Below, in pieces: positions 2,893-57,824 of a stretch of DNA of 64,000 nucleotides. The position numbers and the translations under genes are program-made. Below the pieces are notes generated by a model. It ran no database searches. It had not been told where the DNA came from and was given only the letters and a program-made list of their open reading frames with translations. Position 1 is the stretch's first letter. Each line of letters begins with the position of its first letter. The DNA is from Candidatus Altimarinota bacterium (GTDB taxonomy: Bacteria > Patescibacteriota > Gracilibacteria > UBA4473): contig JAHDHX010000004.1 in the NCBI GenBank assembly GCA_020631075.1, positions 62,001-126,000 of the forward strand. Direction: 5' to 3'.

Positions 2893-3069
2893 ATGCAAGA
2901 CATTACACACTGGTTTTATGAAGCGGGGCGAGAAGATGGCCCCACGATGGGTGAGAGTCCCCTCCTCTGGGTGCGGGGCTGGGTGCTGCGGGGTCTGGTG
3001 CTGGGGTGGCTGACATTTTGCAGCTTGGGGCCAGTGGCCGTGCTGGTGCTGGTGTTAAGGAATCACTGA
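2893..3069 (+). CDS. Small membrane protein, 58 aa
   Basis: This short frame begins MQDITHWFYEAG and carries one long hydrophobic stretch (about residues 28-56) ending just before the stop. It has one of the few clear Shine-Dalgarno-like sequences in the window, AGGGGGTGA, ending 3 nt before the ATG. It follows the two-repeat gene by 45 nt in the same direction and is followed by a hairpin terminator at 3113-3139, so the two may form one operon. A single-pass inner-membrane peptide is the likely topology. The family is not recognised. Confidence 0.55.
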   Translation: MQDITHWFYEAGREDGPTMGESPLLWVRGWVLRGLVLGWLTFCSLGPVAVLVLVLRNH

Positions 3070-3112
3070 TAAACTCCTAAATGACGTGAAAACTTGGCAA
3101 AGAATCACCATC

Positions 3113-3139
3113 AAAAAAGCATCTTTGGGGTGCTTTTTT
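3113..3139. terminator. Bidirectional intrinsic terminator
   Basis: A perfect 9-bp stem of AAAAAAGCA with TGCTTTTTT encloses a 9-nt loop. It closes the 1279-3069 unit. Confidence 0.75.
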
Positions 3140-3297
3140 ACTCCAGAACCGTCACGGGGTCGAGAGACCCCGTGAGAACCTGTCGTAAAAAATCATCCCC
3201 AAATCTTTCTTTTTGTGATTGGCGAGATTGTATCAGCGCTTCCTTGGAACTGTCTGGGGTTGATTTTCTAAAATATTTCAATATAAAGAACTTCGAT

Positions 3298-6533: not shown

Positions 6534-7010
6534 AGGAAGAAAAAATGAAGGAAACAGAAAAAAACCTCGGCTGGGTGAGCAGACGAGGGGCAGTGAAGGG
6601 AGTGGGAACAGGTGGGAAAATTATCTAGCCTGAAGCGACCCTGGGTGCGCGGCCTCGTCTGTGCCTAATGGTCAGGCACAGTAGGAGGAGGAGCGTAAGG
6701 GTCAGGGGGGTAGCTTTCACGTTTTGGTACTCTAAGGTAGGGGGCGGGAAAAGACAAGCTTGTTTATCTGTTTCTCTGGCTCTGTACGCTCTTACGGCGC
6801 ACTCAGGGTGCATATCAGGGCTGGGTGATTAGTATTGTTTTTATTTTGTTTTTATTATATAATTAAATAAATTATTATATTTTTATCCTCATAGGTGCAT
6901 GGTTCATATTGGTTTGTTTGCGGTCTGTACGGTGGTGTTTGTGCTGGCGTTGGCGTATGTGAAAGGGCACATGGTGGAGTAGATCTGGCTGCCTAGGCCT
7001 TAGCTATACA
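6534..7010. other. Gene-poor spacer with an AT-rich block
   Basis: Apart from a possible 27-codon frame (6899-6982), I see no gene here. An AT-rich block, unlike the GC-rich surroundings, spans about 6826-6890 and may hold promoters for that frame. Short minus-strand frames in 6625-6813 look incidental. Confidence 0.5.
6899..6982 (+). CDS. Possible 27-aa single-pass membrane peptide
   Basis: The frame MVHIGLFAVCTVVFVLALAYVKGHMVE consists of one hydrophobic helix with a charged tail. It follows an AT-rich promoter-like block and precedes the terminator at 7011, which fits a tiny transcription unit. The length is too short for statistical support, so it remains tentative. Confidence 0.3.
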   Translation: MVHIGLFAVCTVVFVLALAYVKGHMVE

Positions 7011-7048
7011 CCAAAAAACCGCTGAGCGGGAGCTCAGTGGTTTTTTGG
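7011..7048. terminator. Bidirectional intrinsic terminator
   Basis: CCAAAAAACC-G-CTGAGC pairs with GCTCAG-T-GGTTTTTTGG around a ggga loop. It lies 20 nt past the stop of the minus-strand fibre gene. Confidence 0.85.
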
Positions 7049-7067
7049 ATGGTAGAGAGGACTTGCT

Positions 7068-18929: not shown

Positions 18930-18985
18930 TAGCGGGTGGGTCGATGGTGTAGGCTGGGCTACGAAGAGCGTATATTACAACACTA

Positions 18986-19176
18986 GGGAGTGTGCACAAA
19001 TTGGAAAAAGAAGATTGATCCTGAAGTCTGAGGAGGGATTTGAGTGAAAAAAGGATCTTTTTGGCTGCAAAATGGTTGCGCATTTTTGCCTTGATCCATC
19101 AAGGCTGCAAATACGCGCCCATTTTTCGCTCAAAAATCTCTCTTTTTTCTCCTCAAACCAATTTGTTCACACTCCC
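18986..19176. mobile_element. MITE-like foldback repeat, copy 1 (191 bp)
   Basis: The terminal inverted repeats are GGGAGTGTGCACAAATTGG and CCAATTTGTTCACACTCCC. The interior is itself a long imperfect hairpin, with GAGTGAAAAA facing TTTTTCGCTC and a central CCTTGATCCATCAAGG palindrome. The dinucleotide TA flanks both ends, as in Tc1/mariner-IS630 target duplications. There is no internal gene. Its right end supplies the first base of the stop codon of the tail-tube gene (19176-19178). Confidence 0.75.
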
Positions 19177-19997
19177 TACAACGGATAGCGCCGCTGCCAC
19201 TGCGCGCACCAGCGGCTGCCGGGCGCCGCCGTGACGGTAACGGGCACCCCGTCGGGCAGCTCCGCCCCAGGGCAGCAGCTGGGCCAGGCCCACGCCACCC
19301 CACTGGTGACGGCCCCCTGGTCGAGGGTGAGGGTCAGCAAGTCGGCCTGGGACTGACCGGCTGTCAACGCTGGCACAACCTCGCACAGCTGCCACGCCCG
19401 CGTGGGGGCCAGCCCCGTGGTCGGGGGGCTGAGTTTGATCTCATTGGCGGGGGTAAACGCGTAGTCAACCAGCAGCTCGTCGCCCTGCGCCAGGCCACTG
19501 CCGGGCAGGGGCACCACGACTGTGTACCCGCCCCAGACCCCCACAGTGTAATGCACCCCCTCCACCAGCAACGCCCCCGCCGCCGTGCTGATGCTCAGGG
19601 CCGTCACCGTGGGCGCAGCGTGGTTTTGGTGGGTGATCACCCCCGCATATTGCTCCGACGTCAGCAGATGGTCGAGCGTGACCACCTCCGCCGCCACGGT
19701 CAGACTGGGCCCGAGGTCGAGGGTGGTCGGCTCCCAGCCATAGAGCGTCTGGTACAGCCACGGGCTGCGCACCGCGTGCAAGGTGAAGCGCACCCGCGGC
19801 GACTGCGTGACGATGGTCGGGGCGGGGGCACAGGGGGTGCACGGCCCGCAGTCGTGCATGGTGGTGTCGGTCAGCCACGTCACGTCGCACACTCCCGCCA
19901 CGGTGGCGAAGTCGTCGAGGGCGGGGTCAAAGACCTTGAGGACGGCCTGACTGAAAAGGTGGTCCGTGCGAAGAGGCGAAAGGACAGGGGCAGACAT
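19176..19997 (-). CDS. Tail-tube (major tail) protein candidate
   Basis: The 273-residue product (MSAPVLSPLRTDHLFSQAV) is beta-rich. It includes a segment typical of viral tube/Ig-like proteins: ALSISTAAGALLVEGVHYTVGVWGGYTVVVPLPGSGLAQGDELLVDYAFTPA. The assignment rests mainly on position, next after the DUF3168-like tail terminator. It has 8 cysteines including CGPCTPC. The C-terminus WCAQWQRRYPL ends at a TAG formed at the junction with the copy 1 repeat, so the original C-terminus may have been slightly different. A GGGTG...CACCC hairpin precedes the start. Confidence 0.5.
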   Translation of the reverse strand: MSAPVLSPLRTDHLFSQAVLKVFDPALDDFATVAGVCDVTWLTDTTMHDCGPCTPCAPAPTIVTQSPRVRFTLHAVRSPWLYQTLYGWEPTTLDLGPSLTVAAEVVTLDHLLTSEQYAGVITHQNHAAPTVTALSISTAAGALLVEGVHYTVGVWGGYTVVVPLPGSGLAQGDELLVDYAFTPANEIKLSPPTTGLAPTRAWQLCEVVPALTAGQSQADLLTLTLDQGAVTSGVAWAWPSCCPGAELPDGVPVTVTAAPGSRWCAQWQRRYPL

Positions 19998-28052: not shown

Positions 28053-28754
28053 ATGAACGAAAATCCCCTGGTGTACGTCCACGCCCCTGACCCAAACACT
28101 AAAGCCCTGCTCGAGCTAGCCGCCGAAGAGTTGAGCGAAGACCTCCCCGACGCTCGGGTGCAGCTGATCAAGCAGCTCTCACCCCCCGCCGACCATGCCC
28201 CTGACACGCCCACCGTGCTGGTGCTCAGTGGCCAGCTGGCCTTGTCGGAGCTCCCCGAATGGACCCGCACCAACGTCCAACTGGTGATCTTCCAGCCCGA
28301 AGACCTCGAAGACGTGCCCCTCTGGGCCAACGAAACCCCCTGCTTCGCCCCCTATGACGGGCTTAACCCCCGCGGCTCACTGCAGAGCGCCATCATTGAC
28401 AAAGTAAAAGAAACCATCGAAACCTTACTCACCACCGACGCTGACACCACTCTCACTCCCCACGCTGACACTACACCAGATCCCCTCCCCCACCCTGACC
28501 AGTCGCTCCGCCTCCCCCAGCCCGCCGCCCAGCAGCTGCTCGACGCATTGGCCGACCGTTACCGCACGCTGGGCCCTGACGCGTTCCGCGTGTCGGGTGG
28601 CTTCCGCCTGCCCAACGGCTGGTCGCTCGGGGTGGCCCAGCCGCAGTACATCCTGCGGCAGCTGCTCGCCCACACGGCTGACGACCTCCCCACCAGCATG
28701 GCCGCCTGGCAGCGGGTACTAGGCAGTGTTAACAAATTGGAAAAAACAGGTTGA
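28053..28754 (+). CDS. Hypothetical protein whose C-terminus runs into a MITE-like repeat
   Basis: The 233-residue product has an N-terminal alpha/beta region (LVYVHAPDPNTKALLELAAEEL...TVLVLSGQLAL...NVQLVIFQPEDLEDVPLWA) whose strand-helix rhythm suggests a Rossmann or receiver-like fold. A Thr/Pro-rich linker follows, then a second helical domain (AAQQLLDALADRYRTLGPDAFRVSGGFRLPNGWSLGVAQPQYILRQLLAHT). The last 11 codons and the TGA lie inside repeat copy 2, so the native C-terminus has been replaced. TATTAT lies 10 nt before the ATG. It diverges from the giant coiled-coil gene. Confidence 0.6.
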   Translation: MNENPLVYVHAPDPNTKALLELAAEELSEDLPDARVQLIKQLSPPADHAPDTPTVLVLSGQLALSELPEWTRTNVQLVIFQPEDLEDVPLWANETPCFAPYDGLNPRGSLQSAIIDKVKETIETLLTTDADTTLTPHADTTPDPLPHPDQSLRLPQPAAQQLLDALADRYRTLGPDAFRVSGGFRLPNGWSLGVAQPQYILRQLLAHTADDLPTSMAAWQRVLGSVNKLEKTG

Positions 28755-28910
28755 TCCTAAAATATGGAGAGATTTGAGTGAAAAAAGAATCTTTTTGGCT
28801 GCAAAATGGTTGCGTATTTTTGCCTTGATCCATCAAGGCTGCAAATACGCGCCCATTTTTCGCTCAAAAATCTCTCTTTTTTCTCCTCAAACCAATTTGT
28901 GAACACTCCC
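28722..28910. mobile_element. MITE-like foldback repeat, copy 2 (189 bp)
   Basis: The ends are GGCAGTGTTAACAAATTGG and CCAATTTGTGAACACTCCC, and the interior is nearly identical to copies 1 and 3. TA precedes the left end but TG follows the right end, so a target duplication is incomplete. It supplies the last codons and stop of the gene at 28053. Confidence 0.75.
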
Positions 28911-28944
28911 TGGGCCTGAGTTATTAACCAGCTGCGAAATCCCC

Positions 28945-29658: not shown

Positions 29659-30711
29659 CTAGGCCGTAAACACCTGCTGCGACGCAAACGCCTGCGGCGA
29701 GGTGAAGACGGGCGCCCCCACCCACGAGTGGTAGACACACTGGGTTTTGGGGTTTGACTCGGTCAACAGTTCGACGTGCGAGCCATAGGTCTGGCCCGTG
29801 CAGTCGTCGACATTCAGGCAGTCATAGCAATTGACCCCCGTGGTGGTGCCGTTGCAGCCGCGGTACACCACCACCCCGTCTGGGACGTACGGCGTCCAGA
29901 CCCCCGTGGCGTCGGTGTACCCCGCGTCATACACCCGCACGCCCATCCCGCGCACTTTGGGAATGTCAGTGCCCATCACGAGGCAAGAGCGCAGACACTC
30001 GCCGAGCTCTTCACGCACACTGTCCGCTTGGACAAATTTTGTGTACGTTTCTTGGTTCATGACCATCTCACACGGGGTGAAGCACGTCCCGCGGAAGCTC
30101 AGCCGCGCGTCGTCGATGTCTTGGAGCGGGGTCGAGTTGACCTCGTCGGTCCAGACGTCGGTGCCCGTCAGGCTGGGCAGCACGGTCGTGCCTGTGTTGA
30201 TGGTGATGGGCCCCGCCCCTGGGTCAGCGGTGTCGACATTCATCTGGCCCATCACCCCCTCCCAGAATGATTTTTCTTTCAGCTGGGCGGCCCGCTGGGC
30301 CAGCACGTCAAAGGCCCGCTGCACTGCCCCCGCAATCGCGCCCAGCTGGGCGTCGGTGGCGCAGCCGTTCTTGGCGGCATAGATGTGCGTCAGCAGCTCG
30401 TGGTCAAAGCAGCACGTCTCCTTGGTGACGATCGCCCCAAAGATCTCTGTGGCGAGGTCGCCTTTGGGCACCTCGGTGGCGGCGTCACCCAGCTCGACGG
30501 CTTGAGCGATGCCTTTGTTGGGCTCGAAGGCCGTGAAACGGATGTGGATGCCGTCGTGCTTGATCGGCTCCCCCATGATCTGGTGCCCGAGGAGGTTTTC
30601 GGCCTGGGCGCACATCGCCGTGGGGAAGAGGACGTTGGCGGCGTCGTTGGTCAACAGGAAGTTGGGGCCGCACTCGCGCATGATCTGCGCAATGGTCGTA
30701 GTCGTAGGCAT
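29659..30711 (-). CDS. Phage major capsid protein, lambda gpE-like
   Basis: The 350-residue length matches the gpE family (about 340). The N-terminal region has the A.NLLGHQIMGEPIKHDGIHIRF...GIAQAVELGD..TEV pattern, and a central helix region is followed by a conserved late part: FTPCEMVMNQETYTKFVQ, IPKVRGMGVRVYDAGY and TPYVPDGVVVYRG. These match the HK97-fold capsid E family, in which 'V.vwvYd..y......pylPdg.v' recurs. It has 14 cysteines, about 4 percent of residues, including CC, CFTPC, CLRSC and CYDC..DDC groups. TGTATAAT upstream is one of the strongest -10 boxes in the window. Confidence 0.8.
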   Translation of the reverse strand: MPTTTTIAQIMRECGPNFLLTNDAANVLFPTAMCAQAENLLGHQIMGEPIKHDGIHIRFTAFEPNKGIAQAVELGDAATEVPKGDLATEIFGAIVTKETCCFDHELLTHIYAAKNGCATDAQLGAIAGAVQRAFDVLAQRAAQLKEKSFWEGVMGQMNVDTADPGAGPITINTGTTVLPSLTGTDVWTDEVNSTPLQDIDDARLSFRGTCFTPCEMVMNQETYTKFVQADSVREELGECLRSCLVMGTDIPKVRGMGVRVYDAGYTDATGVWTPYVPDGVVVYRGCNGTTTGVNCYDCLNVDDCTGQTYGSHVELLTESNPKTQCVYHSWVGAPVFTSPQAFASQQVFTA

Positions 30712-32147: not shown

Positions 32148-32558
32148 TTAGAACTCGGCGCCGATGACCAGCACGCCCTTGACGATGCGGCCGCGGAGGT
32201 GGTCTATGGCGTCGGGGTCGAGCCCTGTCAGTAGTCGACTGTGGAAGTAGCCCCCGCGGTAGACCAGCACGCCTGCGCCGTCGAGGTGGTCAGACACTGT
32301 TAGTGACTGGGCGAGGAGGCACCGCGCGGTGCCCTGCCCGTTGGGCGCGGAGGGCACATAGGGCGCGAGGGAGCCGCCGTCTGGGCCCGCGACGAGCATG
32401 GCCATGACCTGCCCCGCGGGGAGGGTGCCCTGTGGGCAATGACTGACCGCCAAGGGCAGCCGCGCCCAGTGGTAGAGCGGGTCCGTCAGTGCCGCGGTGC
32501 AGATGTGCCGGTCGGGGGGGGCGATGCACTGGGGGGAAAAGTGGGCTTCGAGAGTCAT
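32148..32558 (-). CDS. Head decoration protein, lambda gpD-like
   Basis: The 136-residue product aligns by eye with the gpD family: TLPAGQVMAMLV (the 'l..GtvLg.it' element), APYVPSAPNGQGTARCLLAQSLT ('y......dG...a.gIL...') and GVLVYRGGYFHSRLLTGL near the C-terminus. Such proteins trimerise on the outside of expanded capsids and stabilise them. In lambda it precedes the major capsid gene, and here it also lies upstream of that gene, although a plus-strand gene intervenes. Together with the gpE-like capsid this gives the strongest evidence for a lambda-type head. Confidence 0.8.
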   Translation of the reverse strand: MTLEAHFSPQCIAPPDRHICTAALTDPLYHWARLPLAVSHCPQGTLPAGQVMAMLVAGPDGGSLAPYVPSAPNGQGTARCLLAQSLTVSDHLDGAGVLVYRGGYFHSRLLTGLDPDAIDHLRGRIVKGVLVIGAEF

Positions 32559-32639: not shown

Positions 32640-33236
32640 TCAGCTGCTGGGGGACTGGCCCAGGGCACTGCGGAGGCGGTCGAGGGGGGAGATGGGATCG
32701 GGGGTGACCATGCTGCCGTGCAGCGGTGGCGGGACTGGCCTTTGAGCGGTCCTTTTAGCGGACGGTTTAGCGAACCATAGTTCGCTGAGCAAGTCCAGCT
32801 CGGCCTCGGCGGTGAGGGGGTCGAGGTGACTGAGTTTTTCCTCTATCCGTGCAAACAGAGCGGGTTGCTGGGGTGAGACCTCCTGACGGAGCTGGTCAAG
32901 GGTGTGCGCGTTGTGAGCGGACCACTTTGAGACCATTTGGGACAACTCGGCCTGTTGCTGCTCGATGATGGCTTGCTGGGCGGTGATCTCCGCGGTGAGG
33001 GCCTCGGTGGTGGCTTGGCTTTCGGCTTTGATCTTGGCCTTCAGCTCGCCCCGCACACTGGCCCACTCGCGCCCGCGGGCGGCGCGGTCGTCATTGATGA
33101 GCTTCTGCACTTCGGCGGGGGTGTAGGCCTCGGCCCGCAGGGCGTCGAGCTGGGCGGCGGAATCTGGCCCCTTCGGGATGGGGGCAGGGGGGCTGACCGT
33201 GTCAGCGCTGGCGGACGATGAAGTGGGAACACTCAT
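32640..33236 (-). CDS. Capsid scaffold candidate (coiled-coil protein)
   Basis: The 198-residue product (MSVPTSSSASADTVSPPAP) has a Pro-rich N-terminus and the EAYTPAEVQKLINDDRAARGREWASVR segment. A long coiled coil follows (KAKIKAESQATTEALTAEITAQQAIIEQQQAELSQM). It ends in a short C-terminal region after a Pro-rich linker. This composition and its place just upstream of decoration and capsid genes fit a GP20/scaffold-type protein. A TTTATT box lies shortly before the ATG at 33236. A huge inverted repeat (33247-33593) lies immediately upstream. Confidence 0.55.
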   Translation of the reverse strand: MSVPTSSSASADTVSPPAPIPKGPDSAAQLDALRAEAYTPAEVQKLINDDRAARGREWASVRGELKAKIKAESQATTEALTAEITAQQAIIEQQQAELSQMVSKWSAHNAHTLDQLRQEVSPQQPALFARIEEKLSHLDPLTAEAELDLLSELWFAKPSAKRTAQRPVPPPLHGSMVTPDPISPLDRLRSALGQSPSS

Positions 33237-33246
33237 GCGTATGAAT

Positions 33247-33593
33247 AAAGTTAAGAAATACCTTAAAAAAACCCTCTGCCCCCCAAGGTCGTGTGTGTGG
33301 GCAACTGAACCAAACCCCACGAACCAACAGCGCCCAGCGCTGTGGCCCGTGGCCGCGGCGAGCCAGAAGTGCTGACCGAGAACCGCCACCCGTGCCTGAC
33401 CAGCATGCGCGGTGTGAGTCAGCCCTCCAAAACTTCTCACACCAGCCAAGTCAAACGAGGATGCGTCTCGGTCAGCAGCTCTGGCCCAGCGACCACGGGG
33501 GCCCGTGGAGCCGACCAGCCACCCACCACGACAAAGAGCCCACTGTTTATAGAGGAGGGGGGAAGTTTTGTAAATATTTTTCTTAACTTTTTG
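33247..33593. repeat. 347-bp imperfect inverted repeat / possible structured RNA
   Basis: The outer arms are AAAGTTAAGAAATA (33247-33260) and TATTTTTCTTAACTTT (33578-33593 region). A 20-nt inner arm at 33362-33381 (GCCAGAAGTGCTGACCGAGA) faces 33466-33485 with 18 of 20 matching positions. The apex pairs GGTGTGAG (33411-33418) with CTCACACC (33436-33443). The whole intergenic space between the scaffold start and the DCC stop can therefore fold on itself. No gene is recognisable inside, although the minus frame of the scaffold gene stays open across it. Confidence 0.65.
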
Positions 33594-33597
33594 CTGA

Positions 33598-34002
33598 TCA
33601 CGGCAGCAGTCGCTCGCCGAAGGCGTCGGCGAGGAGCTGGGCCCCTGTCCGCACGCCAAACAGCCGATGGCGGTGGCGGGCGACCAGCCGATAAGCTGCG
33701 TCACGCACCGAGGGGGGCACCCACAGCAACCCCGCAAACACGCGGCGCCAGCCGCCTGTGTCCGCCAGGGCGCGCAGCACGGCGCTGCTGTGGGTGAGGG
33801 TGTGGCCGCCGTGCTGGTAGACGATGGTGTCGAGCGTGGTGGTCAGCGCGTGGGGCAGGCGCGCCGCCGCCGTGGCCCCCTGCAGCGGGGCGAATTGCAG
33901 CCGTCGGTGACGGTCGACACTGGCCAGCAGCCGCACCCAGCCGTGGCAGAGCCCGCACTGGCCGTCAAAGAAGAGGACGCGGGCGGGGGGGGAGGGGGGC
34001 AT
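33598..34002 (-). CDS. DCC-family (DUF393) thiol-disulfide oxidoreductase-like protein
   Basis: The 134-residue product begins MPPSPPARVLFFDGQCGLCHGWV. The [FY]DG.C.[LF]C motif, with cysteines 16 and 19, defines the DCC family, which has a thioredoxin-like fold. The later LTHSSAVLRAL.....WR and a C-terminal RLFG element are also typical. The length is usual for the family. Direct biochemical functions are poorly known; a thiol-redox role is inferred. It starts 7 nt after GCTACCCT, so a leaderless mRNA is likely. It sits between LRR and scaffold genes in the Cys-rich virion region. Confidence 0.75.
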   Translation of the reverse strand: MPPSPPARVLFFDGQCGLCHGWVRLLASVDRHRRLQFAPLQGATAAARLPHALTTTLDTIVYQHGGHTLTHSSAVLRALADTGGWRRVFAGLLWVPPSVRDAAYRLVARHRHRLFGVRTGAQLLADAFGERLLP

Positions 34003-57570: not shown

Positions 57571-57691
57571 TATTGCTGCAGACCAACTATTGATCGTGCT
57601 TGCAGGGCTGCTTGCTCTTGCCCTTGGGACTCGGAAGTGTTCACAAATTTGGAATAAGGAGATTGAGCTTGAAGTATCAAGTAAGATTTGA
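57560..57691 (+). CDS. 43-aa hydrophobic frame coupled to the peptidase, cut by a MITE-like repeat
   Basis: The frame MLNDIAADQLLIVLAGLLALALGTRK overlaps the peptidase gene by 11 bp and holds one membrane helix. The last 18 or so codons and the stop come from repeat copy 3. This may be the remnant of a longer membrane partner of the peptidase, or a membrane anchor still expressed in short form. Confidence 0.4.
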   Translation: MLNDIAADQLLIVLAGLLALALGTRKCSQIWNKEIELEVSSKI

Positions 57692-57824
57692 GTGAAAAAA
57701 GGATCTTTTTGGCTGCAAAATGGTTGCGCATTTTTGCCTTGATTCATCAAGGCTGCAAATACGCTCCCATTTTTCGCTCAAAATTCTCTCTTTTTTCGCC
57801 TCAAACCAATTTCTGAACACTCCC
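57633..57824. mobile_element. MITE-like foldback repeat, copy 3 (192 bp)
   Basis: The ends are GGAAGTGTTCACAAATTTGG and CCAATTTCTGAACACTCCC. The interior hairpin differs from copy 1 at only a few positions. No target duplication is visible. Its right end abuts the promoter of the gene at 57847. Confidence 0.75.

Follow-up and report, generated by a model that had tools for sequence, protein, structure and literature searches.

In lambdoid phages, the late-gene leader pR'-tR' (the lambda '6S' RNA) consists of a promoter followed by 200-300 nt of untranslated RNA and a U-tract, after which come the late or head genes. The packaging RNA (pRNA) of phage phi29 is a short multi-helix RNA and not a rod, and the RNAs GOLLD, ROOL and OLE are multi-branched and widely conserved.

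The window analysed here, a 64,000-nt stretch of a Candidatus Altimarinota genome, holds an intergenic spacer that can be likened in its layout to the lambdoid leader: a promoter-like site, a presumably untranslated RNA and a U-tract stand before phage-type head genes. The spacer is, however, far more structured, it adjoins a presumed scaffold gene rather than lysis genes, and no antiterminator gene was identified. With 6S RNA (RF00013) its predicted RNA shares a rod with paired ends, but this rod is nearly continuous over ~280 nt, whereas 6S RNA measures ~185 nt (160-220) and has an open central bubble. Like phi29 pRNA, it would be a structured RNA adjoining phage head genes, though rod-shaped and longer. 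MITE-A and MITE-B, two foldback families of the same genome, are also long imperfect inverted repeats with terminal arms (at the spacer ends, 26 nt with 12 exact); the spacer foldback differs from them in being single-copy, in having no target duplication, in its length (347 versus 193-194 bp) and in its strand-skewed mismatches. GOLLD, ROOL and OLE (PMC12286853) resemble it as large structured bacterial or phage RNAs; the spacer RNA differs from them as one rod and as an orphan.

Results

A giant foldback fills the spacer

Between the DCC1-like and presumed scaffold genes lies a spacer that is, over its entire length, a genuine giant foldback (Table 1). The original prediction had recognised a spacer-wide inverted repeat and placed it at 33247-33593; the repeat is real, and its span reaches beyond these limits to the full 361 nt. 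A 20-nt inner arm with 18 matches, an 8-bp apex stem (GGTGTGAG/CTCACACC) and an arm ending 10 nt ahead of the scaffold ATG at 33236 were all recovered as predicted. The outer arms also exist, with an exact core shorter than the 14 nt claimed for them. When the spacer was dinucleotide-shuffled 1500 times, no 18/20 inverted repeat appeared; among shuffled ends, 0.4% gave an outer match of 12 exact nt. Genome-wide, the exact outer 12-mer is confined to these two sites; its copies with one mismatch occur at control level, and we rejected it as a genome-wide motif.

Table 1. Features of the spacer and of the neighbouring genes (window coordinates).
Feature	Position	Strand	Evidence
Whole spacer, predicted rod-shaped foldback RNA	33237..33597	-	fold -184.4 kcal/mol, z -10.3; single copy; no Rfam family
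Outer arm, AAAGTTAAGAAA core	33247..33272	+	26 nt, 81% complementary, 12 exact (repeat finder)
Outer arm partner, TTTCTTAACTTT core	33565..33590	+	pairs with 33247-33272 (repeat finder)
Inner arm	33362..33381	+	18/20 complementary, 90% (repeat finder)
Inner arm partner	33466..33485	+	pairs with 33362-33381, 20 nt at 90%
Promoter-like TTTACA-N17-TATAAA inside left arm, directed at scaffold gene	33546..33574	-	10/12 consensus
Inferred core of the transcript, from its start to the U7 tract; closed rod, both ends paired	33262..33541	-	-164.2 kcal/mol by itself; closed by an 11-bp stem, GGCUCUUUGUC
G-rich 3' arm GGGGGGCAGAGGG, three competing partners	33269..33284	-	duplex energies -16.3, -14.5, -25.6 kcal/mol
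Presumed scaffold gene, 198 aa, downstream of spacer	32640..33236	-	position before decoration and capsid genes
Head decoration protein D-like (lambda D-like) gene	32148..32558	-	PF02924 2.4e-6, just below curated cut-off; phrog_49 3e-8
Major capsid protein E-like gene	29659..30711	-	PF03864 2e-12; phrog_29 1.3e-9
DCC1-like thiol oxidoreductase gene, upstream of spacer	33598..34002	-	PF04134 1.5e-23

Genomic setting

The name scaffold, given to the downstream gene in the original prediction, fits its position before the decoration and capsid genes, while Pfam and PHROG gave no match for its protein. A Dit/minor-tail-like gene lies farther downstream. Since Hsp70, sulfate permease and S-layer genes share the contig, we regard it as chromosomal, and the head cluster is either a prophage or a remnant, or else a phage-type module that was domesticated. 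Phage-type head and tail genes with interspersed plus-strand ORFs occupy 12704-33236 of the window, and a search of the whole genome for one terminase family, TerL_ATPase (PF03354), gave no match; the region may be a phage module that has been domesticated or has degraded. The genome measures 1.46 Mb (relatives 0.6-1.7 Mb) and encodes RNase III. The scaffold reading frame stays open upstream to 33737. A protein-coding spacer was rejected on coding scores of about zero or below in all six frames.

Predicted fold of the spacer RNA

The folding check proposed in the original prediction yielded the long structured RNA that it had anticipated. As minus-strand RNA, the spacer is predicted to form one rod whose energy was equalled by none of 100 shuffles; the plus-strand RNA reaches -145.1 kcal/mol (z -6.1). 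Of 260 segments of 280 nt placed at random in the window, those below z -5 all came from this spacer or from one MITE-A copy; with dispersed-repeat copies set aside, few parts of the window are as structured as the spacer. Taken alone, the 280-nt core scores nearly equally on the two strands (z -7.5 versus -6.8), so that the strand call is only moderate.

The predicted rod is a series of 10-13-bp helices with small bulges between them. In the transcript that would run from the promoter to the U7 tract, the 5' end pairs beside U7, and in the predicted read-through RNA the outer stem has a pairing probability near 1. The G-rich 3' arm could pair with the promoter spacer, in read-through RNA only (-16.3 kcal/mol), with the 5' end of the promoter transcript (-14.5 kcal/mol) or with scaffold codons 33176-33195 (-25.6 kcal/mol), values to be read with the caution that G- and C-rich tracts readily pair by chance. 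A scan for a standard intrinsic terminator, in which a compact stem-loop is followed at once by a run of U, found none; it is only the giant rod that abuts the U7 tract.

Promoter-like site and mismatch polarity

The promoter-like site is present on the minus strand only, with none on the plus strand, and arises in 0.3-0.9% of shuffles. It had been passed over by the general scan, which demands a final T. Because the outer arms flank this site, the upstream outer arm would be missing from a transcript started there.

When the arms of the rod were aligned without credit for G-U pairs, we counted 110 identities, 22 mismatches of the G-T type, 2 of the A-C type and 31 others. The 22:2 skew has a probability of 4e-5 under symmetry and of 0.002 once the strand's own composition is granted; MITE-A, the foldback family of the same genome that served as control, does not share the skew, its copies totalling 63 G-T versus 43 A-C mismatches. 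An equally large G-T/A-C difference was found in 29 of 738 tiled segments, where composition skew is probably the cause. Given these segments and the similar z scores of the 280-nt core on both strands, the G-T skew is supporting evidence and not proof. Aligned globally with G-U pairs ignored, the core has a score that is by itself unremarkable, since 229 of the 738 segments reach it. Altogether, the G-T skew, the minus-only promoter-like site and the lack of a target duplication or second copy probably favour a minus-strand RNA over a DNA element.

Other foldbacks and structured spacers

MITE-A, a foldback repeat of 194 bp, has ends TAGGGAGTGTTCACAAATTGG and apparently a TA duplication. It is present at window positions 18985-19181, 28720-28911 and 57633-57824, and the genome has about 21 near-full copies, the others being 89-95% identical to the first. 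MITE-B (193 bp, ends GGAAACACTGATAAATT) occurs in several copies at 88-92% identity, including window positions 3055-3245, L012 14173-14366 and L013 15002-15195.

The search for further rods covered the window plus 40 kb of flanking sequence, and a few other spacers of the same contig proved to be very structured too. One of them, at window 6534-7067, is single-copy and folds on the plus strand to -206 kcal/mol (z -8.4), with 43 G-U pairs versus 4 on the other strand; it lies just upstream of a possible ORF for a 27-aa membrane peptide (~6900-6983) and a strong terminator-like hairpin. Two more, L013 3667-4285 and 10223-10772, are highly structured on the minus strand (z -8.5 and -7.2), and both have a promoter close to consensus and an ORF of ~62-65 aa resembling a small membrane protein; from the second of them, a 59-nt stretch is directly repeated nearby (97%).

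Copies and relatives

The search for copies elsewhere, also proposed in the original prediction, returned nothing besides the spacer itself in the whole 1.46-Mb genome. A candidate second copy at C3:12025 was rejected as a 41-nt match of low complexity within an open coding frame. The spacer has no Rfam match, and searches of phages, viral contigs and 353 genomes of the class brought up no relatives. Run over those 353 genomes, a covariance model built from the apical 130 nt of this one sequence matched only itself. Literature searches returned nothing on such a rod-shaped element. The 6S RNA model gave no match at the locus or anywhere in the genome at E up to 10, a search in which 8 of 14 controls were detected. 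SRP RNA was rejected, as no SRP-like apical motif was seen by eye and the small-SRP model has no match genome-wide. That neither the small-SRP nor the 6S model matches in the whole genome, though controls do, means either that these RNAs are divergent or that they are located in absent parts of the genome.

Relatives were also sought through the neighbouring genes. No usable capsid relatives were found in the class, the phylum sample, viral contigs or genome contigs, and viral contigs gave no relatives of five other cluster proteins (scaffold, decoration, 2005-aa, Dit and 384-aa). Two Lactobacillus phages match the capsid protein with 28% identity over 45% of its length, too distant for a comparison of spacers. 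Relatives of the DCC gene share only 32% and 40% identity, and a scan of the short locus of one of them (G013) found no qualifying spacer. The rod is thus an orphan, strongly structured and with no relatives detected.

Discussion

We tentatively favour, at somewhat less than an even chance, a reading in which the spacer encodes a minus-strand rod RNA that acts in cis as a leader for the scaffold and decoration genes. Of the three options raised in the original prediction (a foldback element, a packaging-type RNA and a translation-control leader), the strand-biased G-U pairs, the minus-only promoter and the absence of a second copy agree best with a leader-type RNA. RNA polymerase would start just past TATAAA, at about 33541, and the RNA would collapse into the rod, its ends meeting beside the U7 tract at about 33262. 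The junction of the rod could then end transcription, be cut by RNase III, or mask or free the scaffold start region. Processing by RNase III is plausible, since the enzyme is encoded and the predicted rod offers 10-13-bp helices with small bulges; a translation switch is possible because the duplex between the 3' arm and the scaffold codons would loop out the start codon. In this way the junction may set the amount of head protein and insulate the scaffold gene from the upstream DCC transcript. The outer arms are the feature that this leader model explains least, unless read-through from the DCC gene matters too.

The same promoter and U-tract could instead delimit a small RNA gene in its own right, about 280 nt long and acting in trans, for instance on RNA polymerase as 6S RNA does. 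Its paired 5' and 3' ends and rightly placed promoter would suit such a gene, as would a genome with no recognisable 6S RNA elsewhere, but the rod exceeds 6S RNA in length, has no open central bubble, has neither an Rfam match nor a scanned terminator, and ends only about 25 nt before the scaffold start; we regard this as unlikely. The main rival, given that the genome carries two MITE-like foldback families of 193-194 bp, is a foldback DNA element, either MITE-like or a solo inverted repeat, that entered between the DCC and scaffold genes and then decayed. Such elements do abound in this genome, and the outer arms are exact at the extreme ends. Against an insertion, the rod is single-copy and resembles neither family, its flanks (ATGAAT and TTGCTG) contain no target duplication, and its arms are only about two-thirds identical, with mismatches skewed to G-T on one strand. 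An origin of this kind is likewise unlikely.

If the 12-mer, exact at both ends and unique to the spacer, were a DNA operator pair for a looping regulator, the inner complementarity would be secondary; the 20-nt inner arm and the continuous rod would then go unexplained, and one-mismatch copies in the genome are no commoner than in controls, which makes this account very doubtful. A packaging RNA serving a phage motor, as in phi29, is most improbable: the locus does adjoin head genes, but nothing positive speaks for this part of the original prediction, PF03354 and Rfam searches were negative, and a rod is not the shape of pRNA. A bolder reading, which we think improbable, is that the rod represents a new RNA class, encoded by a small-genome bacterium within head genes of phage origin, with the long duplex-like fold itself the working part, for example by binding, much as dsRNA would, a head, polymerase or RNase III protein.

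In such small-genome bacteria, little work has been done on phage-type head genes and on how they are controlled. In a genome rich in foldbacks, mismatch polarity and promoter placement can help to separate RNA from DNA hairpins, and the exceptionally stable RNA predicted directly ahead of the head genes is a concrete candidate regulatory element.
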